57,729 nt of DNA from Rhodoluna sp. (GTDB lineage Bacteria; Actinomycetota; Actinomycetes; Actinomycetales; Microbacteriaceae). Both the position numbers and the translations under genes were made by a program. The notes below the pieces were generated by a model that was given only the letters and a program-made list of their open reading frames with translations, did no database searches and was not told where the DNA came from. Each line of letters begins with the position of its first letter. Position 1 is the stretch's first letter. Of the stretch, positions 5,123-22,915 are shown one piece after another. Location: the NCBI GenBank assembly GCA_030831605.1, contig JAURKU010000015.1:1-57729 (forward strand), given 5' to 3'.

Positions 5123-5704
5123 ATGCCTTTTGAACAAGCCTTACTCACTCTGGCGCAGGCCTTTAGCTTGCTCTTGCCGATCTTGCTGTCTGGACTATTT
5201 TTTATAGCCTGCATGAAAAAGCGCTGGCTGATGGCACTAAATAAGCCGATGGACTTTGGTTTGGAACTGGGTGGAAAACGGCTATTTGGCCCTAATAAGA
5301 ACTGGCGTGGGGCAGTTCTGTATTTGGTCGGGGGAACCGCAATCACCTTGATGCTGCATTACCTCTCATTGACCCAGGGCTGGGTAGCTCCGGTATTCCA
5401 GCAAGATCCTTGGTTAGTGGGGCCACTTTGTTGTGCCGGCTATGTCCTGGGGGAGCTCGTAAACAGCTTCATCAAGCGAAGGCTAGAGATCTTGCCCGGC
5501 TCAAAGGCGAAGACTCAGTTAGGCAGGCTAATCCAAGCTTTCTTTGATAACGCCGATGGTGCTATTGGCTATGGAATTGTTTTGAACCTGGTGTTTAGAC
5601 CAGAAGGTAGTTATTTGTATCTAGCGTTATTGCTTGCCTTTATCGTTCATGCCTCAAGCGATGTTTTGATGAGAAAGCTCTCGCTAAAGCAAAAGAAGAA
5701 ATAG
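5123..5704 (+). CDS. CDP-archaeol synthase (CarS)-like membrane cytidylyltransferase
   Basis: A 193-residue membrane protein with about five hydrophobic segments. It carries the family landmarks of the CarS/DUF46 group: DFGLELGGKRLFGPNKNWRG at 44-63, SFIKRRLEILPG at 115-126 and DNADGAIG at 142-149. Archaeal CarS transfers CMP from CTP to 2,3-di-O-geranylgeranylglyceryl phosphate; bacterial relatives are largely uncharacterised and may activate another lipid phosphate. AGGGGG lies about 11 bases before the ATG. Its 3' end overlaps the convergent kinase-like gene by 21 bases. Together with the genes on the opposite strand it forms a candidate lipid pathway. The family call is good; the substrate is unknown. 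Confidence 0.8.
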   Translation: MPFEQALLTLAQAFSLLLPILLSGLFFIACMKKRWLMALNKPMDFGLELGGKRLFGPNKNWRGAVLYLVGGTAITLMLHYLSLTQGWVAPVFQQDPWLVGPLCCAGYVLGELVNSFIKRRLEILPGSKAKTQLGRLIQAFFDNADGAIGYGIVLNLVFRPEGSYLYLALLLAFIVHASSDVLMRKLSLKQKKK

Positions 5705-6286
5705 TGCCGCGGCGGCTGGCACAGTCAAGTTATCTGAACCCAGCGGGGAAACCCTCTCAACTAATGTCAAGGCTGCGCTAATCAAAAGTGCTAACCAGAT
5801 ATCTGCACTTGAAGTGCTCAGTAAGACAATTAGGGAGACGGCAAAAAACACCAACGATCCACGAAACATTTTTCGCGGTTGTTTATAGAAATTACTGACC
5901 AGCCCGGCAAAGCTATCGGCGAAGGTTAAAACCAGAATGCTTGGCACAAATATCTCTTTATTTCCTGAACAAATAACAAAGCTAATTAATGTGCCAAGGG
6001 GTAAAAATAACTCACCGTAGGTTTTTCTAGTCACCGCATGAATGGCGGTGAGGATTCCAAATCTTTGTGAGATTAGTCCGCCAATTAGGGCAACTACCAC
6101 AAGCGAGAGGAACCAAGGGGAGGGGAGAAGCGAAAAGTTAAGCAATGTGCAAAGCCCAGTTCCAATGTGGGCAATCCTTCTAGTGATCTCTGCCGAAACC
6201 CCAAACTTTCTTCTAGAGAGTTCTAAAAGAGCTAAAAAGGCTATATATAAACCGGCAAGGGCCAGCGCTAACAAAAGTGTTTCCAT
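5684..6286 (-). CDS. Phytol/dolichol kinase-like integral membrane protein
   Basis: A 200-residue protein with six or seven membrane segments. Recognisable elements are RRIAHIGTG at 36-44, GELFLPLGT near residue 91, ADSFAGLVSNFY near residue 123 and a C-terminal GSDNLTVP, the pattern of the SEC59/VTE5 and CDP-diglyceride-synthase-like superfamily. Known members use CTP to phosphorylate phytol, dolichol or farnesol. It is the last gene of the minus-strand cluster and starts directly after the stop of the GNAT-like gene (TAA then ATG). A CTP-dependent polyprenol or isoprenoid alcohol kinase is the natural guess; a cytidylyltransferase is the alternative. Confidence 0.75.
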   Translation of the reverse strand: METLLLALALAGLYIAFLALLELSRRKFGVSAEITRRIAHIGTGLCTLLNFSLLPSPWFLSLVVVALIGGLISQRFGILTAIHAVTRKTYGELFLPLGTLISFVICSGNKEIFVPSILVLTFADSFAGLVSNFYKQPRKMFRGSLVFFAVSLIVLLSTSSADIWLALLISAALTLVERVSPLGSDNLTVPAAAALFLLLL

Positions 6287-6790
6287 TTATCTTTCCCCCA
6301 CAATCGCATAGAGCGGTTTGCTCTTTTGCAACTTATTCCTAATCGCCTTGCCGCTTGCTGCATTTAGTCGCTTAGTTAGAAACTTGCCACGAGATAAAAC
6401 TATCGCGCCAAATAAATTAGTCTGCTTAGCCTGCCAAGCGCTCACCACATACCTAATCAGGGACTTGTCGTAGGTAGCCAGCAGCATCCGCTCTGGCCTA
6501 GCAGCAATTACCTGCATCAGTTCGTTAAACACCGCTGCGCCTCGAAACTCAGGTTTTACATAAACCATGCCAACTTCAGATAGATTTCGGGCAAGCGGTT
6601 CAACGGCTGCCCAGCCGGCAAGTACTTGATCAACAAAGACAACTGCTAAAGCCTGCCGTTGAGCTAAGTCTCTAAGAACAGAAATTGAGCGGGGAGTCAG
6701 CTCAGGTTGGTCTTGGGAAGTATTGAATATTTCCTGTATCAGGGCTGCTTGATCCTGACCAGCAATCTCAAAGGTGGCCCTTACAGCCAT
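6287..6790 (-). CDS. GNAT-fold acetyltransferase-like protein
   Basis: A 167-residue protein. Residues 50-95 have the GNAT look: a strand with AVVFVDQVLAGWAAVEP, then VGMVYVKPEFRGAAVFNELM, in which the segment PEFRGAAV stands where acetyl-CoA binding R/Q-x-x-G-x-G/A is expected, though the glycine pattern is degenerate. The basic C-terminus (KFLTKRLNAASGKAIRNKLQ) is unusual for the family. The start overlaps the 3' end of the CDP-alcohol phosphatidyltransferase gene by ten bases, so the two are co-translated. The role in the lipid-like cluster is unknown; it might acylate a head group or amine. The family call is moderate. Confidence 0.6.
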   Translation of the reverse strand: MAVRATFEIAGQDQAALIQEIFNTSQDQPELTPRSISVLRDLAQRQALAVVFVDQVLAGWAAVEPLARNLSEVGMVYVKPEFRGAAVFNELMQVIAARPERMLLATYDKSLIRYVVSAWQAKQTNLFGAIVLSRGKFLTKRLNAASGKAIRNKLQKSKPLYAIVGER

Positions 6791-7398
6791 AGCAGGCCAC
6801 CGACTCCAATCAAGATAGATACCGGTATCCAGAAAATCAGCACACCAGTTTTACGGGTCCTGATCTGGGACAGTTGTCCGATGGCTAAAAGAGAAAGTAT
6901 CAGAGCAATCAATAAGTCACGGTAAGGCAGGTTTTCGATTGGCAGAATCCGCTCCGCAACATAGATTAGCAACGTAGCAAGTGATAGGTGGCAGGTAATT
7001 ATGCCTCGATAGTAGAGAACTTCACCTTCGTTATAAAAACCTTTGATATTAAATAGTGCTAGTCGCAAAATACCGAAAGCCAAAATTAGAAATCCGACAA
7101 TATAACCAAGTAAATTCGGCAGCAAATATTGCGAGGTGACCAGTGCTGCCAGTAGTGAGTAGTTAATGACATCTGATAGCGAATCTAGTTGTCTACCAAA
7201 ATCACTGGTCTTATTTAGTTTCCTAGCAAGATAACCATCGAGAACATCTAATTGAAAAGCGATAGCTCCAAAGACCACAGTTAATTTCACGTTTTCGGAA
7301 AGCAGGAATCCGATTGCTGTCCAAGAGCTAAGAATGCTAAGCAGGGTGATCAAGCCGGGCCAGCCAATCAGTTTTAGCAGTTCATTGATACGGTTCAC
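6781..7398 (-). CDS. CDP-alcohol phosphatidyltransferase family protein
   Basis: A 205-residue membrane enzyme. It carries the complete catalytic motif D51-x2-D54-G55-x2-A58-R59-x8-G68-x3-D72-x3-D76, which binds the metal and CDP-lipid. About six membrane segments follow. Members displace CMP from a CDP-activated lipid with an alcohol such as serine, inositol phosphate or glycerol phosphate. Start is GTG with a GTGA overlap onto the dikinase stop, so the genes are coupled. Next to a CarS-like cytidylyltransferase this is the expected head-group-adding step. The alcohol acceptor cannot be deduced from the sequence. Confidence 0.88.
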   Translation of the reverse strand: MNRINELLKLIGWPGLITLLSILSSWTAIGFLLSENVKLTVVFGAIAFQLDVLDGYLARKLNKTSDFGRQLDSLSDVINYSLLAALVTSQYLLPNLLGYIVGFLILAFGILRLALFNIKGFYNEGEVLYYRGIITCHLSLATLLIYVAERILPIENLPYRDLLIALILSLLAIGQLSQIRTRKTGVLIFWIPVSILIGVGGLLWL

Positions 7399-9806
7399 TT
7401 TTTGATTATCCCCGTATTGCCGTTGATGGTCACTATTTCGCCAGTAACTAGATTGTTTGTGGCGTTTACCGCTGCAACGATGGCAGGGATACCTATTTCT
7501 CTAGCGATAATTGCCGCATGTGAAAGGGCATTACCGCGTTCAGCGACAATTCCGGCCGCTTGAGTAAATAACAGGGTCCAGCCTGGATCAATGTAGTGAA
7601 CCACCAAAATTTTCCCTCTGACATCTACCGTTGGGTCGAAGGTCTTAACAACAATTACCTCCGCAGTTACCTCACCAGGGGCAACGCCGTTTCCAGCGAT
7701 GCCATCCTCGCTAGGGATAGCTTCAACATTTACCTGGTGCATGCCGGCTATCCGGCCGGAGCCTTGAACTGCTAGGGTCTTTTCTACTTTTTCATACTCG
7801 GCAAACTTTAGCTTTCTTGCCTGAACTAACGGCTTGGCATCGAGTATCGGTGCATGAGCGCCAACCAATTCGTCAACTTCGTGATCGGTTAGCCAGTAAA
7901 TATCCCTCGGCGAGGCCAGAATCCCCTCCTCATAAAGGGCCTTACCTACCGTGTCGAAGCCCTTACGGGAGAGGTTGAAGGTTTGCGCTCGGTTAAACCT
8001 AAAGCGCTCGCGCCAGTCAATCGCTCGCCTAGTGTTTTTAGCAACATAGCCAATGACTGGGCGTAACAACACAGACTGGTTGGTTGGCCAGGCAAATTGC
8101 CTGGTTTCTTGGCTCGGTGAAGCATCAATTCCGGATTTAGAAGATTTCAAGGCAAGTTCCAAAATGCTAAAAAGGTTGTCTGTGATTCTCTGGTTTTCAA
8201 GCTTCAGTTCGCCTGGAGTTCTAGCGCCAAACTCGTTCACATATTCACCGGCAGCCTGCTTTACCCTTGTGAAGCTCGGTGTCTTACTCAACTCTGAGAG
8301 ATCTTGGACTTGTTCTAAGCCCATGGCCTGTTCAACGATTTGACCGAGACGGCTCAATTGCTCGAGTGGCCTGATGCTGGCCTTGTCGGTTAATCCAGCC
8401 ATCAAAACCAAATAGTCTTTAGGATTTTCACTTTTGGCATATAGTCGCTGCAGAATTCCATGAAAGACCATAAGCCTAACGTCATTCAAAATAGTGACAG
8501 CCCACTGGTTTAGCACCTCACGGCGGATCTTCTTACCCGATTCCAAGATTGTTGCTGCGTTGATGTAGTCAAAGTTCACCGCATCAAAGCCAGCAATCTT
8601 TTCAGCGATCTCCTTGGAAAACTTTTTAGATATACTTTCGGAACGAAATAGCAGATAGCTAAGGCGGAAAATCGTCAGAATGGATTTTAGGTCCATTTTG
8701 CTCTGCTCAGCTTTGCCTCTCTTCCTAACGGGATTTAGCATTGCCTCGAAATATTCTTGGTTGCGTTTTCCAGGCATCAGCTTGATTGCCTCATACCAGT
8801 TGGTAATTCTGTAGTAAACGCGACCATCTAAATATCCGAGCATGTTCTCGGTTATCGGAGCCGCTTCGGCGATATCTTTTTCTTTGGCACCTAGCATTCG
8901 GAAAAAAGACAAATAGACAGAACCGTAGAATTGCCGAATCACCGAGTAGGTCAAAGGCAAAGTTATCCCCGGGTAGTTCTCGGAAATGTTAGTACTATCC
9001 CATTCAAAGCTGTATTCAAGCATCGGCTGGGTTATTGGACGAAATTGTAAAAAGGCGACAGAATCTTGGTTTACGGCCCATTCAACATCGATGGGTCTTC
9101 CTATTGAAGCCTCAATTCGTAATGCATCTTCGCAGAGTCTTTTCAGTTGGCTGGGAAGTTGGGCCTTTTGTAGGCCAAATCTAGGAATTCTGATTTCTCT
9201 GGCATTTTCACCCTCAACCGCTGTGTTCTGCCAAGAGTCGCTAACCGCCAGTTGCAGTTCACCGAAACCATTCTCGGTAAAGAGCACCCCAGAACTGTTG
9301 CCGTAAAACATCTTTTGCACAATTACCGAGCCGCCAAGTAAGAAATGACTAATTCCCCGAAGTTTGGAGTAGGAGAGCACCTGATCAGAAAGCATGCTGT
9401 TAAAGCACCGGACAGAGTATTCCCGAAGGCTTTCCATACTGAAGTCGATATCAAGGAAAGACTGATACTGTCCGGCAAAGGAGTCCGTGCCACCATCTTC
9501 AAGTAATGCTGAAGTTCGAAAACTTACCTTTTGCATTCCTTTGGCTTCAATTTCGGCAGCAAGCTTGTTTAGGGATGCATCATCTACAGAAAGATTTGCC
9601 AACAAACCCTGTAAATGCGCCTGGCAGGTTGATAACTCAATCTGATCACTCAGGAATTCATTAACGCTTTGGACAAGGCTTTCTGAGAGGTCCGGGTAGT
9701 TTTGAAAAAGCTCTTCAAACGGGATAGCAAGAAACGCTGGCACATCAACCCGATAGTTATCCCTGAGCTGGATAAGGTTTTCCGCTTTGGAGCCTAAGTT
9801 TGTCAT
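7395..9806 (-). CDS. PEP synthase / rifampicin phosphotransferase-like dikinase
   Basis: A protein of 803 residues from the ATG that forms an ATGA overlap with the upstream prenyltransferase stop; a GTG four codons earlier is possible. The N-terminal third is a pyruvate-phosphate-dikinase-type ATP-grasp (VSFRTSALLEDGGTDSFAGQ and GVLFT, then VEWA and LQFRPITQ). A long helical middle has no close resemblance I recognise. The C-terminus is a swivelling phosphohistidine domain with NALSHAAIIAREIGIPAIVA, His about 763. Relatives transfer the ATP beta-phosphate through this histidine to pyruvate or, in RPH, to a hydroxyl of rifampicin. Context suggests phosphorylation of a lipid or head-group alcohol rather than gluconeogenic PEP synthesis; this is inference. 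Confidence 0.8.
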   Translation of the reverse strand: MTNLGSKAENLIQLRDNYRVDVPAFLAIPFEELFQNYPDLSESLVQSVNEFLSDQIELSTCQAHLQGLLANLSVDDASLNKLAAEIEAKGMQKVSFRTSALLEDGGTDSFAGQYQSFLDIDFSMESLREYSVRCFNSMLSDQVLSYSKLRGISHFLLGGSVIVQKMFYGNSSGVLFTENGFGELQLAVSDSWQNTAVEGENAREIRIPRFGLQKAQLPSQLKRLCEDALRIEASIGRPIDVEWAVNQDSVAFLQFRPITQPMLEYSFEWDSTNISENYPGITLPLTYSVIRQFYGSVYLSFFRMLGAKEKDIAEAAPITENMLGYLDGRVYYRITNWYEAIKLMPGKRNQEYFEAMLNPVRKRGKAEQSKMDLKSILTIFRLSYLLFRSESISKKFSKEIAEKIAGFDAVNFDYINAATILESGKKIRREVLNQWAVTILNDVRLMVFHGILQRLYAKSENPKDYLVLMAGLTDKASIRPLEQLSRLGQIVEQAMGLEQVQDLSELSKTPSFTRVKQAAGEYVNEFGARTPGELKLENQRITDNLFSILELALKSSKSGIDASPSQETRQFAWPTNQSVLLRPVIGYVAKNTRRAIDWRERFRFNRAQTFNLSRKGFDTVGKALYEEGILASPRDIYWLTDHEVDELVGAHAPILDAKPLVQARKLKFAEYEKVEKTLAVQGSGRIAGMHQVNVEAIPSEDGIAGNGVAPGEVTAEVIVVKTFDPTVDVRGKILVVHYIDPGWTLLFTQAAGIVAERGNALSHAAIIAREIGIPAIVAAVNATNNLVTGEIVTINGNTGIIKK

Positions 9807-10636
9807 AACCAGAAGCACAATCCGCTTAACACCAGGAAGGTGATAGCTACAACTAATCTAACCGCTTCGTTTTGTTTACGAATCAAAATCATCAGAAGGC
9901 AAGAGAGTAAGCCGATGATGACGAATATTGGTTGTTGGGCCGGTAGGTAAAGTAAAGCTGAGCCAAGAGCAGTGATTCCCAACATGATCCAAAAAGCCCA
10001 GGTTTTCCAAACCGCAAGGTAGGTGTCCAGCACAATTTCTCCAGAGGGATTTCTGCGGATTTCATATTTGCGCATAATCTCCATGCTTGCCATAAACAAA
10101 ACAAAGGAAGTCGCTTGGCCTAAGTTGATAAGGCTTATCTCTGTTTGAAATAAGTTGAACGACCACAGCGGGTAGAGCAGAAAGATCGCCTGGTGGGATA
10201 AGAAGTAGATATTGAAGTGTCTATCCAGAAATTTAGGAGCAAAAAACTCAAAACGAGTGAGAGCCGAGTAGCCAAGTATTGCCAGATAAAACCAAGCGGC
10301 AGCTAGGTTATTGGAAAACATTCCTGCTAGAACTGCTGACGTGATTTCTAGCAGAAGAGAAATAATGCCAATCGAGATTAACTGATTACGGCTAATAATT
10401 CCGCGTTGAACCGGGCGATCGGGATAGTTGCTGTTGTCATGGCTGGAGTCTTTGAATTCATCAGTGACTCTCATTCGGAGCATAAAGAAGAAAAAACCAA
10501 CAGCTATACAGAGCATTACTTGCCAATTCTGGGTATTACTGCTGATTCCAACTAGGAATGATGCGGTGGCTAGGGAGTGAACGCTCGTGATTGCAAGCGG
10601 AAAGCGCTCGCTAAAGTACGTCCTAATGTTGCTCAT
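9803..10636 (-). CDS. UbiA-like prenyltransferase family membrane protein
   Basis: A 277-residue protein with about eight to nine membrane helices. The first aspartate-rich loop is at residues 56-75 (RVTDEFKDSSHDNSNYPDRP), giving D59-x3-D63-x3-D67 in place of the usual NDxxDxxxD. The second loop is shorter, around MEIMRKYEIRRNPSGE, with few acidic residues. UbiA enzymes move a prenyl group from its diphosphate to an aromatic ring, a sugar or glycerol phosphate. It starts at ATG behind GGGGGA and is the first gene of the minus-strand cluster; its stop overlaps the next ATG (ATGA). Activity and substrate are unproven; the altered motifs could mean a divergent reaction. Confidence 0.75.
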   Translation of the reverse strand: MSNIRTYFSERFPLAITSVHSLATASFLVGISSNTQNWQVMLCIAVGFFFFMLRMRVTDEFKDSSHDNSNYPDRPVQRGIISRNQLISIGIISLLLEITSAVLAGMFSNNLAAAWFYLAILGYSALTRFEFFAPKFLDRHFNIYFLSHQAIFLLYPLWSFNLFQTEISLINLGQATSFVLFMASMEIMRKYEIRRNPSGEIVLDTYLAVWKTWAFWIMLGITALGSALLYLPAQQPIFVIIGLLSCLLMILIRKQNEAVRLVVAITFLVLSGLCFWL

Positions 10637-19566: not shown

Positions 19567-20559
19567 CTAAACGGCAGGTTGCTGCTGGGTAATGCAGTGA
19601 ATTCCGCCGCCTTTGGCAAAGATCGGCCTTGCGTCAATCAGTCTTATCTCGCGGCCCGGGTAGGCCTCGGCCAAGATGGCTTTTGCCTCAGCGTCGTTGG
19701 CATCATCAAATGCGCAGAGTAGAACCGCTCCATTAAGGATGTAGTGGTTGATATACGAGTAGTCAACAAAGCCGCGTTGATCTTTTAGAACCTTAGGGGC
19801 CGGAACTTTGATCAGGTTGATATTTTGCAGTTCAGCTAGCCGCGCTGCCACTTCATGGCTAACCGTGTAATCGGGGTGATTCTGATCTTGCTGGTCGTGC
19901 ATCAGGATGGTCTGCTCATCGGAAAAGCAGGCAACTATATCGATATGCCCCTTAGTTCCGTAGGCTTCGTAATCACGAGTTAGTCCACGTCTAATCCAGA
20001 CAATATCGTTCACACCAAGTTTTTCTTTTAATTCCTGTTCAACTTCAGCTTTAGTCCAATCGGGGTTTCTTTCGACACCGAGTTGAACAGTTTCGGTTAC
20101 CAGCAACAGCCCACTGCCGTTGACATGGATGCCACCGCCTTCGTTGACCATTTCGCTTCGAATAATTTCAGCCTGTGCTCGATTTGCCATGACTGCTGCC
20201 ACCAAGTCATCTTTTTGGTAATCCTCAACAGGTAGTGACCCCCAGCCGTTGAATCGCCAATCAATTGCACCAAGTTTTCCATTTTCCGTATTCACTACAA
20301 ATGTCGCGCCGTTATCTCTGACCCATGAATCGTCTAAGTCGCAAATCAAGGTAGTGATTTCACTAGAGAGATATTTTCTAGCTGTCTGTTCTTGAGCTGG
20401 GTCAACTAAAACCGTCACCGGTTCATATTCGCTGGCCGCGTTAGCCACTTCGGACCAGGCTTTATAAGAATCTTCTGCAGGTGTTGCATATTCGTTTGCG
20501 GGAAATGATAGCCAGGTGCGTTCATGTCTTTCCCACTCGGCCGGCATTTTCCAACTCAT
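19567..20559 (-). CDS. aguA: Agmatine deiminase
   Basis: A 330-residue enzyme of the PAD-like guanidine-modifying family (PF04371). It converts agmatine to N-carbamoylputrescine and ammonia. Seen motifs are SWVRDNGATFVVN, EGGGIHVNG, THGHID-like GTKGHIDI and the catalytic Cys 322 in GGGIHCITQQ at the C-terminus; all are in place. It is the last gene of the operon and overlaps the upstream amidase gene by four bases. With that amidase it makes putrescine from agmatine in two steps. Confidence 0.95.
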   Translation of the reverse strand: MSWKMPAEWERHERTWLSFPANEYATPAEDSYKAWSEVANAASEYEPVTVLVDPAQEQTARKYLSSEITTLICDLDDSWVRDNGATFVVNTENGKLGAIDWRFNGWGSLPVEDYQKDDLVAAVMANRAQAEIIRSEMVNEGGGIHVNGSGLLLVTETVQLGVERNPDWTKAEVEQELKEKLGVNDIVWIRRGLTRDYEAYGTKGHIDIVACFSDEQTILMHDQQDQNHPDYTVSHEVAARLAELQNINLIKVPAPKVLKDQRGFVDYSYINHYILNGAVLLCAFDDANDAEAKAILAEAYPGREIRLIDARPIFAKGGGIHCITQQQPAV

Positions 20560-21539
20560 TGCGCTTCTCCTGCAATTCCTCCATCAATTCCATCGCCGGA
20601 ATCGACTCTTGGGTTTGCCACTGGTCTGGTTAGCGCTTCATAGGTATCAGGTCTTCTAGTTGCAAGAAATGGAAAAAGATCTAACCAGTCGCGACGCTGA
20701 TCCAAATCAAGATCGGCCACCAGAACTTCATCTTCATTTCTCGAGGCTTGAACAAGCACTCTGCCATAGGGGTCACTAATAAATGACGTCCCATAGAAAT
20801 TCAGAGCGCCTTCATTTCCCCAACGATTTGGCACAACCATAAAAGTTCCGCTGTTGATGCCATTTGCGACAATAACTTTTTGCCACAGTGGTGCGGTATC
20901 AAAATCTGGATGATCTGGTTCTGAACCAATAGCGGTTGGATATATAAGCATTTCGGCACCAGCAAGCGAGTACGCTCTGGCAACTTCAGGGAACCACTCA
21001 TCCCAGCAAGTCGGAAGCCCCAGTTTGCCAAGCTCGGTGTCATAAACCGGATAAGGATCTGGATCACTTGGCCCAGGGGCGAAGTATTTATCTTCGTAGT
21101 AACCGGCCGTAACTGGAATGTGTGTTTTTGGGGTGTAGCCGATCAACTCGCCTTCGGGGTTCACCAAGATTGCAACGTTGTAGCCGCGGCCATCTGCTAA
21201 CTCACTTTTTTCATAAAGCGAAGCGTGAATATAAAGCCCATATTTTTCTGCGGCAGATCTAGCAAAGTTAAGTGTTGGGCCTTCTAATTCCTCGGCAATT
21301 GTGCTCGGGATGCCGCTTGGTTTCTGATCTGCTGGGTAGCGCGAAAGGGTTAACTCCGGCAAGCAGACAAGCTTGGCTCCGGCTTTAGCTGCCAACTCTA
21401 TTCCGTTGTTTAGATTCTCGAGGTGCTTAGCAGCATCTTTTTCCCAGTGCATCTGCACCAGGGCTATTCTTACCGGCTCGCGGGTTGCCGCTTTAACTCT
21501 AGAAAGCGAATCTAGTTTGCCAACTTGGGTTAGTTTCAT
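20556..21539 (-). CDS. aguB: N-carbamoylputrescine amidase
   Basis: A 327-residue nitrilase-superfamily amidase. The Glu-Lys-Cys triad is seen as CLPELTLSRYP, PKTHIP and LPTCWDEWFPE. The ATGA overlap with agmatine deiminase and the typical YYEDKYFAPG stretch favour N-carbamoylputrescine as substrate (to putrescine, CO2 and ammonia). The N-terminal 25 residues and a glycine-rich C-terminal tail (SGDGIDGGIAGEAQ) extend beyond the usual 290-300 residues. It overlaps the upstream decarboxylase gene by four bases. Confidence 0.93.
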   Translation of the reverse strand: MKLTQVGKLDSLSRVKAATREPVRIALVQMHWEKDAAKHLENLNNGIELAAKAGAKLVCLPELTLSRYPADQKPSGIPSTIAEELEGPTLNFARSAAEKYGLYIHASLYEKSELADGRGYNVAILVNPEGELIGYTPKTHIPVTAGYYEDKYFAPGPSDPDPYPVYDTELGKLGLPTCWDEWFPEVARAYSLAGAEMLIYPTAIGSEPDHPDFDTAPLWQKVIVANGINSGTFMVVPNRWGNEGALNFYGTSFISDPYGRVLVQASRNEDEVLVADLDLDQRRDWLDLFPFLATRRPDTYEALTRPVANPRVDSGDGIDGGIAGEAQ

Positions 21540-22915
21540 TTTTCACTCATTGAATCGATGATTTTGGTCAGTAGTTTCAGTTCAGTCCTCGGGTTCACAA
21601 TGGCGAATCTGGCATTTGGTTTACCCTCATGCGAACTAGGTGTTACAAAACCAAGTTCCTCTCGAAGAATCCGCTGTGACCACTTCTCGTAGTCGGCTAG
21701 CTTCCAACCGACTCTCTCAAACACCACAATTGATAATTCAGGTTCACGAACAAGCTTTAGGTCTTTTCTTGAGCGGATCACATCGGCGATCTTGTGGGCC
21801 AGATCGATGTTCTCGGCTACAGCAATTCGATAGGCACCAACGCCATAGGTAGCGAGCGAGAACCAAAGCGGTAATCCTCTAGCCCTTCTGGTTAGGTGGT
21901 AGGCGTAGTCGCTTGGGTTGAATTCACCGCTATCGGTCAATGTGTCGAGATATTCTCCGTGTTGAGTGTGGGCAGCCGCTGCCAATTTAGGGTTGCGATA
22001 AACAAGCGCGCAAGAATCAAAGCTGGTGAATAGCCACTTGTGTGGATCAACGATAAATGAATCTGCTTTTTCTACGCCCTTGAATAGCTTTTTCTGCCGT
22101 GGGTCTAAAATTCCAGCAAGACCGTAAGCGCCATCAACGTGATACCAAACACCCAATTGTTTGGCCGCCTTAGCAATCTCATCTAAACGGTCTACTATTC
22201 CGAAATTCGTAGTTCCGGATGTTGCCACAACTGCAAATAAACCGTCTTTAATTTTCTCGGCAGCATCTAAAACCGCTTGACCGGTTAGTCTGCCTTCGTG
22301 ATTGGCTTTGGCTAAAACAATATCGATATCCATAACTCGAGCTGCCGCTTTGAGCGAGGAGTGTGATTCTGAAGAAGCGATAATTGACCAGCGTTTAGGA
22401 AGCTTTTTGCCCTTACGCTTTGCTATCGCCTCGTGTCTTGCAGTTACCAGAGCCGAGAGGTTACCAAGAGATCCGCCTTGAACAAAAGTTCCCCCTGCAG
22501 ATTTGGGTAAACCAACTTCCTTGGCCAGCCACGCCAGCACTTCATTTTCAGCAAAGACGGCACCAGATCCTTCGAGCCAAGATCCGCCGTAGACACTGGT
22601 TGCTGAAACAACAAGGTCAAAAAGGGTTGCCGCTTCGGTTGGTGCCACTGGAATAAAAGATAAGTAACCGGGGTGATCGGTTGAAATACAGGCTGGGGCC
22701 AGAACATCTTCAAAGATTTTTAGCGCTTTATGTCCACCGAGACCTTTTTCGTTGATGGTATTTGCAGCATGTTTTTTTAGGTAGCTAAGACTTTGTGGAC
22801 CATCCAGCGGAGCCGGGTCCATGGCCATGCGCTCTCTGGCATAGTTCAGCACTTCTTCACGAAGCGCAATCGTTGCGGCGTTGGAAGAGTGCATCTTGGC
22901 TGCTTTACCAGTCAT
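21536..22915 (-). CDS. Group II pyridoxal-phosphate decarboxylase
   Basis: A 459-residue fold-I decarboxylase of the aromatic-amino-acid/glutamate/diaminobutyrate family. HPGYLSFIP, WYHVDGAYG (PLP-binding Asp) and VDPHKWLF (Schiff-base lysine) are intact. Family members act on aromatic amino acids, glutamate, diaminobutyrate, lysine or ornithine. It is translationally coupled to an amidase and a deiminase that consume agmatine, so arginine is a tempting substrate although known arginine decarboxylases mostly belong to other families. TAGGCT precedes the ATG by six bases, so transcription probably begins here and the message is leaderless. Substrate is an inference. Confidence 0.88.
   Translation of the reverse strand: MTGKAAKMHSSNAATIALREEVLNYARERMAMDPAPLDGPQSLSYLKKHAANTINEKGLGGHKALKIFEDVLAPACISTDHPGYLSFIPVAPTEAATLFDLVVSATSVYGGSWLEGSGAVFAENEVLAWLAKEVGLPKSAGGTFVQGGSLGNLSALVTARHEAIAKRKGKKLPKRWSIIASSESHSSLKAAARVMDIDIVLAKANHEGRLTGQAVLDAAEKIKDGLFAVVATSGTTNFGIVDRLDEIAKAAKQLGVWYHVDGAYGLAGILDPRQKKLFKGVEKADSFIVDPHKWLFTSFDSCALVYRNPKLAAAAHTQHGEYLDTLTDSGEFNPSDYAYHLTRRARGLPLWFSLATYGVGAYRIAVAENIDLAHKIADVIRSRKDLKLVREPELSIVVFERVGWKLADYEKWSQRILREELGFVTPSSHEGKPNARFAIVNPRTELKLLTKIIDSMSEK

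Follow-up and report, generated by a model that had tools for sequence, protein, structure and literature searches.

In Rhodoluna sp. contig JAURKU010000015.1 (57,729 bases, analyzed at its full length and referred to here as the window), six adjacent genes encode a UbiA-like protein, a dikinase of the rifampin phosphotransferase (RPH) type, a CDP-alcohol phosphatidyltransferase, a GNAT-like protein, a kinase-like membrane protein, and a CarS-like cytidylyltransferase (Table 1). We tentatively read this block as an accessory pathway that would build a non-standard polar lipid on an isoprenoid-type alcohol, which is the explanation that we favor, short of calling it probable. The reading is based on the conserved neighborhood of the genes, their patchy distribution, the families to which the proteins belong, and the conservation of catalytic residues. 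From these we infer that the six genes share a single pathway, in what order its steps would follow, and that its lipid would be isoprenoid in nature, the last point drawing on the UbiA-like protein, the prenol-kinase family, and an HMG-CoA reductase gene that neighbors a related gene set in Roseinatronobacter.

The six genes recur as a conserved unit

The window is the first contig of a 1.14-Mb genome in 56 contigs with a completeness rating of 81%, the relatives of which, judged by name, are Rhodoluna and other metagenome-assembled genomes (MAGs) of Microbacteriaceae and Micrococcales. Among the 149 genomes searched for the cluster genes (the window's own counted in), the UbiA-like gene is found in 7 and the CarS-like gene in 8, all of the window's genus; the additional CarS-positive genome is G038, whose contig ends inside the block. 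Dikinase matches occur in 45 of the 149 genomes. Besides the complete copy of the window, there are five near full-length matches at 53–67% identity and, in G044, a partial one of 84% identity truncated at a contig end; the remainder are partial, with E values of 6e-24 or weaker. A further locus (L060) belongs to the MAG MsE-30jul19-157, which was recovered by a pattern scan of a genome contig collection and carries the unverified label Gulosibacter massiliensis.

All six genes lie on a single contig at five loci (the window, G025, G016, G048, and MsE-30jul19-157). The G063 locus has its CarS gene cut at the contig end, in those of G039 and G044 a contig break in the UbiA or dikinase gene divides the block between two contigs, and that of G038 holds the GNAT-like, kinase-like, and CarS-like genes only, at a contig end. 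Wherever the contigs that we read, from Rhodoluna and MsE-30jul19-157, cover the block, gene order and orientation are identical, the convergent CarS gene included. The MsE-30jul19-157 locus has a G+C content of 61%, two Rhodoluna loci standing at 44% and 46%, and its flanking genes differ from those of the Rhodoluna loci; the block stays intact while its flanks vary. Since the order recurs in other genomes at 35–67% protein identity to the window across the six genes, it is not due to chance, and the six genes form a conserved unit in Rhodoluna and the MsE MAG, in line with an initial annotation of this DNA. A patchy distribution and a weak GNAT member are what one would expect of chance neighbors or decaying genes with no shared role, but intactness despite changing flanks, the catalytic residues kept in the proteins (see below), and the level of identity over all six genes make such an origin scarcely credible.

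The block is absent from some relatives: the R. lacicola type strain (G006) gave no match to the UbiA, dikinase, or CarS queries. The pattern scan of the contig collection returned 48 pattern matches that resolve into 7 loci, all Rhodoluna-type or from the MsE MAG; since its patterns were built from Rhodoluna sequences, distant phyla were hardly surveyed. Conservation of the six-gene set in another phylum, which the initial annotation had raised, was not found in this scarce coverage of other phyla, where one plasmid with three homologues appeared. In the wider phylum set (396 genomes, again including the window's own), a search for the UbiA orthologue matches two, namely the window's genome and one with a weak partial match. 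Viral contigs gave no matches. The flanking genes are rearranged in the 5 cluster-free genomes that were opened (of 10), and an empty-site comparison is therefore not clean. The cluster was not found described in the literature searched, which comprised titles and the beginnings of abstracts and few subscription journals; the available text of PMC12422013 contains no match to the words archaeol, UbiA, prenyl, or isoprenoid.

Our open reading frame coordinates bear out the presence and positions of the six genes given earlier, as well as the 21-base overlap with which the CarS gene converges on the kinase gene. The minus-strand genes had been described as overlapping by 4–10 bases, which holds for most of them: the overlap is 10 bases between the CDP-alcohol transferase and GNAT genes, 4 between the dikinase and CDP-alcohol transferase genes, and, between the UbiA and dikinase genes, 16 with the GTG start of the dikinase or 4 with the ATG four codons in, at 9806, which is the probable start. 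The GNAT and kinase genes abut without overlap. Profiling with Pfam recovered the expected families for the CarS-like protein, the CDP-alcohol transferase, the dikinase (PPDK_N and PEP-utilizers), and the UbiA-like protein, but left the kinase without a model and the GNAT-like protein below the cut-off (Acetyltransf_1, 19.0 versus 20.7 bits). The GNAT-like gene is found at each cluster locus where the contig spans its position. Scanning for promoters and terminators yielded no more than shuffled sequences did.

A membrane protein of 216–218 amino acids (aa) is encoded directly upstream of the UbiA gene in G016, G048, G063, and the MsE MAG, and is absent from that position in the window and G025. 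The G048 copy has no NCBIfam match. It may be an optional seventh member of the cluster.

Table 1. Genes of the block in the window (positions of the window) and the upstream membrane protein at related loci
Feature	Position	Strand	Basis
CarS-like CTP:lipid-phosphate cytidylyltransferase, 193 aa	5123..5704	+	PF01864
CTP-dependent prenol/lipid-alcohol kinase-like membrane protein, 200 aa	5684..6286	-	conserved residues, eight long predicted helices
GNAT-like protein, 167 aa, possible N-acyltransferase	6287..6790	-	Acetyltransf_1 below cut-off
CDP-alcohol phosphatidyltransferase, 205 aa	6781..7398	-	PF01066, complete motif
RPH-type small-molecule dikinase, 807 aa	7395..9818	-	PF01326, PF00391, PDB match 5fbs
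UbiA-superfamily protein, 277 aa	9803..10636	-	PF01040, motif 1, fold match
Upstream membrane protein	L053:13526-14176, L054:900-1556, L055:5206-5856, L060:2000-2650		

The UbiA-like protein carries an altered motif 3

The UbiA-like protein matches PF01040 at 37.7 bits (cut-off 34.2) and keeps Asp-rich motif 1 as D59-E60..D63...D67 (DE..D...D). At the place of Asp-rich motif 3 stands E186..R189-K190, and this E..RK signature is present in 9/9 cluster-type proteins, the Roseinatronobacter one included. Thirteen UbiA paralogues aligned from the Rhodoluna genomes G000, G006, G016, and G017 all have one Asp or more at motif 3; three other UbiA proteins are encoded in the window's own genome. Judged by their sequences, the cluster UbiA proteins look like a distinct subfamily.

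The best fold match of the UbiA model is the archaeal digeranylgeranylglyceryl phosphate (DGGGP) synthase (7bpu/6m31, E 7e-4, TM 0.52), and other UbiA folds score similarly (e.g., Aeropyrum UbiA, TM 0.59). In the accessible part of PMC9385802, DGGGP synthase is described with both Asp-rich motifs. The link to this enzyme made in the initial annotation thus stands for the Pfam family, motif 1, and the best fold match and falls at the second Asp-rich motif, which is replaced by E..RK. Given the altered motif 3, the usual prenyl-diphosphate donor is not to be assumed. Assignment of the protein to EboC was rejected (NCBIfam NF035940, 26.3 bits versus a cut-off of 250).

The kinase-like protein resembles prenol kinases in its clamp motif

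The kinase-like protein is recognized by neither Pfam nor NCBIfam models, and eight homologues searched against Pfam at E values up to 10 gave unrelated matches only (best E 0.5). Residues R36-[R/K]37-x2-H40, T121, D124, E177, D185, and N186 are found in 10/10 homologues, and the structure model (pLDDT 85.7) contains eight long helices. For PfPolK, a CTP-dependent prenol kinase, a model with eight membrane helices has been described, in which an Arg-Lys-His clamp occurs together with a nucleotide hinge formed by Thr and Glu (PMC10849223, in the part accessible). The R36-[R/K]37-x2-H40 motif resembles this clamp, as do the eight helices those of PfPolK. The spacing of T121 and E177 is 56 residues, versus 35 for Thr144/Glu179 of PfPolK, counted in sequences that are not aligned to each other; given this difference, the likeness of the hinge is at most suggestive. 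A fold search of the kinase model among solved structures returned nothing below E 0.001, which speaks neither for nor against a kinase. No PDB match was obtained either.

The kinase family profile matches 6 of the 396 phylum genomes, and of the five besides the window's own, we read three, at four loci in total. In G248 (L132:9713-11370), a kinase copy directly adjoins a classical UbiA gene (94 bits, Pfam), and in G286 (L134:6870-8630), from another actinobacterial family, a kinase-like domain is fused in a single protein to DUF92 (PF01940, 191 bits), possibly forming a two-step prenol kinase. DUF92 is the family to which the phytyl-phosphate kinase VTE6 belongs. VTE6 has been linked to COG1836 (PMC9782597, available text). 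These two relatives strengthen the earlier reading of the protein as phytol/dolichol-kinase-like, and the evidence is suggestive of a CTP-dependent prenol/lipid-alcohol kinase, as predicted from sequence. Two side observations concern the same family: no UbiA gene was noticed beside the second kinase copy of G248 (L133), and G415 (L135) resembles, by eye, the G286 fusion.

The dikinase is of the RPH type

The dikinase matches PPDK_N (PF01326) at 106.6 bits (cut-off 27) and PEP-utilizers (PF00391) at 80.8 bits (cut-off 23.1), and its best PDB match is rifampin phosphotransferase 5fbs (E 3.9e-52). Its domains run from an ATP-grasp through a substrate domain of its own to a C-terminal phosphohistidine swivel at residues 735–803 of 807. 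The initial annotation had called it phosphoenolpyruvate (PEP) synthase-like. We reject this assignment, as the swivel is C-terminal, no pyruvate/PEP domain follows it, and TIGR01418 scores 138.2 bits versus 739.75; domain order, PDB match, and this score identify an RPH-type small-molecule dikinase instead. Nor is it a rifampin phosphotransferase proper (NCBIfam RIF_Ptrans_rph, 181.2 bits versus 999).

Residues K11, R101, S/T120, R603, E604, R607, and H767 are kept in all aligned rows that span them. By our reading of the 5fbs alignment and of the residues named in the accessible part of PMC4844700, cluster K11, R101, S120, R603, E604, R607, and H767 correspond to RPH Lys22, Arg117, Thr136, Arg666, Glu667, Lys670, and His825, with an exchange of Thr/Ser at 120 and of Arg for Lys at 607. 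Since the phosphotransfer residues of RPH are kept, phosphorylation of a hydroxyl would be the likely chemistry. Enzymes related to RPH-type dikinases act on phenols, according to the available text of PMC12167813. As a separate observation, Streptomyces plasmids carry dikinase-like PEP/pyruvate-binding proteins in A-factor-like loci (L069:12409-16806, L068:4669-9423) together with an AfsA-related hotdog protein and an isoprenylcysteine methyltransferase, that is, the same enzyme type in another context.

Together, kinase and dikinase could also serve prenol salvage, the former turning a prenol into a prenyl phosphate and the latter carrying it on to a diphosphate or phosphorylating an acceptor, so that algal phytol- or farnesol-like alcohols are recycled; UbiA would prenylate a small acceptor, and CarS and the CDP-alcohol transferase would decorate the product. 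The clamp motif, which resembles that of phytol/farnesol kinases, the relative fused to DUF92 (the family of the second kinase, VTE6), and the kinase gene adjoining a UbiA gene in G248 all fit such a scheme. In the accessible parts of the papers, however, RPH-type dikinases phosphorylate hydroxyls of small molecules and not prenyl phosphates; CarS would be superfluous, and the HMG-CoA reductase adjoining the Roseinatronobacter set points to synthesis. We consider salvage unlikely and continue to prefer the polar-lipid pathway.

Predicted CDP activation and head-group transfer are additional to the host's ordinary lipid genes

The CarS-like protein matches PF01864 at 46.2 bits (cut-off 22), and when the family profile is searched against PDB at E values up to 0.1, its sole match is CDP-archaeol synthase 5guf (E 0.0012). 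D44, G56, K59, R62, K118, D142, and D145 are kept in 8/8 aligned homologues, the cut copy of G063 being excluded. The protein falls short of the equivalog level of NCBIfam PRK04032 (60.6 bits versus 148), and as a query against a collection of 72,556 plasmid records, it gave no matches. A profile comparison of the kinase and CarS families, asking whether they form one CTP-using family, found no relation. PF01864 matches occur in 10 of the 396 phylum genomes; four of the nine besides the window's own were inspected by eye, three of which sit in cdsA-type operons (pyrH, frr, uppS, or dxr neighbors), G266 alone looking like a stand-alone CarS-like frame. These counts argue against CarS-like genes being widespread in the phylum.

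The CDP-alcohol transferase matches PF01066 at 61.3 bits (cut-off 22), and its motif, D51..D54-G55..A58-R59..G68..D72..D76, is complete in 8/8 aligned homologues, as noted at the outset for the window's copy. The closest PDB entry is the phosphatidylserine synthase 7pow, and the protein scores below the pssA equivalog (68.4 bits versus 107). At the serine-site positions of MjPSS given in the accessible text, Ser63 and Arg101 are kept, Ala59 is replaced by R/T, and Arg104 is replaced by L/S, an offset of 3 between the two numberings being our own reading. Because two of the four serine/anion-site residues are changed, the head-group alcohol may be one other than serine.

The earlier view of the cluster as accessory agrees with the lipid background of 18 Rhodoluna genomes (8 with the cluster and 10 without; several are incomplete MAGs): a CdsA-type gene is full-length in 17 and a fragment in the 18th, and the window's genome has two further CDP-alcohol transferases outside the block. 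An alternative reading is a head-group variant of ordinary phospholipids, in which the kinase would phosphorylate diacylglycerol with CTP, the CarS-like enzyme and the CDP-alcohol transferase would act on diacyl lipids, and UbiA and the dikinase would make the head-group alcohol. The transferase is closest to phosphatidylserine synthase, and the MjPSS structure paper, in its accessible part, does not expect discrimination by hydrophobic tail. However, since CdsA is already present, an additional CarS-type enzyme suggests a different lipid, and the kinase profile reaches the DUF92 fusion. We therefore regard this variant as improbable. In the cluster-free Rhodoluna genome G014, we also observed adjoining CdsA-like (PF01148) and CDP-alcohol transferase-like (PF01066) genes (L089:7305-10360), next to which lies, by eye, a possible acyltransferase.

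A related gene set lies on a Roseinatronobacter plasmid

In the plasmid collection, the single match of the UbiA-like protein is plasmid NZ_CP121116.1 of the alphaproteobacterium Roseinatronobacter sp. S2 (30%, E 1e-7). The dikinase has 12 matches, among which only the one on NZ_CP121116.1 reaches a query coverage of 80% or more (29% over 90%, E 7e-71), and a kinase homologue is present on the same record (34%, pairwise E 3e-15, hhalign probability 98.6). This set (L066, L067) further includes DUF3419, a GNAT-like protein, and an AMP-binding enzyme, and an HMG-CoA reductase gene (PF00368, 362 bits) adjoins it, spanning the origin of the record and missing from its annotation table. The betaine-lipid enzyme BtaA belongs to the DUF3419 family. 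The window and the plasmid thus share UbiA, dikinase, and kinase together, along with the E..RK signature of UbiA, and differ in that DUF3419, the AMP-binding enzyme, and HMG-CoA reductase stand in place of CarS and the CDP-alcohol transferase. This single plasmid record suggests that UbiA, dikinase, and kinase are a lipid-making core with exchangeable head-group enzymes.

The product could instead be a prenylated, phosphorylated specialized metabolite, such as a signal or an antibiotic, rather than a membrane lipid. The AMP-binding enzyme adjoining the Roseinatronobacter set, the patchy distribution of the cluster, and the occurrence of RPH-type dikinases in such contexts (e.g., the Streptomyces AfsA-type loci) would agree with this. 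On the other hand, four of the six enzymes belong to membrane-lipid families, the block has no internal transporter or regulator, and DUF3419, the BtaA family, lies beside the plasmid set; we find a specialized metabolite quite improbable.

Several observations weigh against the polar-lipid pathway that we favor. The Roseinatronobacter cluster has neither a CarS nor a CDP-alcohol transferase gene, its UbiA and kinase, as queries against the plasmid collection, match only themselves, and the GNAT-like proteins of the window and Roseinatronobacter are without demonstrable homology. The alteration of UbiA motif 3 means that ordinary prenyl-diphosphate transfer is not assured, and the kinase model lacks a solved fold match as well as a Pfam or NCBIfam model. 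Finally, HMG-CoA reductase (PF00368) is found in 0 of the 18 Rhodoluna genomes, several of them incomplete MAGs, which argues against the mevalonate pathway as the cluster's supply in this genus; the isoprenoid would therefore probably be supplied by another route.

Other genes of the window

At 19567-22915 of the window, genes for an agmatine deiminase-like protein, a carbon-nitrogen hydrolase, and a pyridoxal phosphate-dependent decarboxylase, recognized by eye from their translations, are consecutive and adjoin glycine-cleavage genes. Their predicted products possibly form a route from arginine/agmatine to putrescine.

Proposed pathway and comparison with known systems

In the pathway that we propose, the UbiA-like protein would make or modify an isoprenoid lipid in the membrane, and the RPH-type dikinase would phosphorylate an intermediate, either a small molecule or a lipid, at a hydroxyl, converting ATP to AMP and phosphate via phospho-His767. 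The prenol-kinase-like protein would use CTP to phosphorylate a lipid alcohol, the CarS-like protein would convert the lipid phosphate to a CDP-lipid, and the CDP-alcohol transferase would attach the head group, which, or an amine precursor of which, the GNAT-like protein may acylate. Of the logic set out in the initial annotation, the succession of kinase, CTP activation, and head-group transfer fits the catalytic residues examined, while the PEP synthase and the second Asp-rich motif of DGGGP synthase have been given up, and a six-gene set shared across phyla was not found in the scarce coverage of other phyla.

Taken further, the cluster might represent a new class of bacterial membrane lipid, an isoprenoid or mixed phospholipid made with an E..RK-type UbiA protein whose donor site is rewritten, a prenol kinase, and CarS-type CDP activation, with a core common to Actinomycetota and Alphaproteobacteria, head-group chemistries of each lineage's own, and independence from the usual phosphatidate route. 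We hold this broader proposal to be doubtful. If true, isoprenoid phospholipids in Bacteria would bear on the "lipid divide" with Archaea. To our knowledge, candidate bacterial gene sets for isoprenoid phospholipids are few. One has been proposed in the Fibrobacterota–Chlorobiota–Bacteroidota (FCB) group (PMC7852524, in the part available). The present set is compact and occurs in assemblies of ~1.1–1.3 Mb of a streamlined genus, some relatives, including a cultured type strain, lack it, and a related core exists in another phylum. The cluster further places an RPH-type dikinase in a natural substrate context; the substrates of such enzymes are largely unexplored according to the accessible text of PMC4844700.

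Compared with the archaeal ether-lipid pathway, the cluster has the same three enzyme superfamilies (UbiA, CarS, and CDP-alcohol transferase, represented there by DGGGP synthase, CDP-archaeol synthase, and archaetidylserine synthase) in the same presumed order, with best matches to DGGGP synthase (UbiA fold), CDP-archaeol synthase (CarS), and phosphatidylserine synthase. It differs in that UbiA is without the Asp residues of motif 3, that a dikinase and a predicted CTP-using lipid-alcohol kinase are added, and that scores stay below the equivalog cut-offs. Like VTE5, FOLK, PfPolK, and SEC59, the kinase has an Arg-Lys/Arg-x2-His clamp and is predicted to form eight long helices, and it has a relative fused to DUF92, whereas it lacks a Pfam or NCBIfam match, spaces Thr and Glu differently, and shares its block with a CarS-type enzyme. 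The dikinase, in turn, agrees with the RPH/HpeHI type in domain order and in the active-site K, R, T/S, R, E, and H, and departs from it in a strongly diverged substrate domain, an equivalog score of 181 of 999, and a context of lipid genes.

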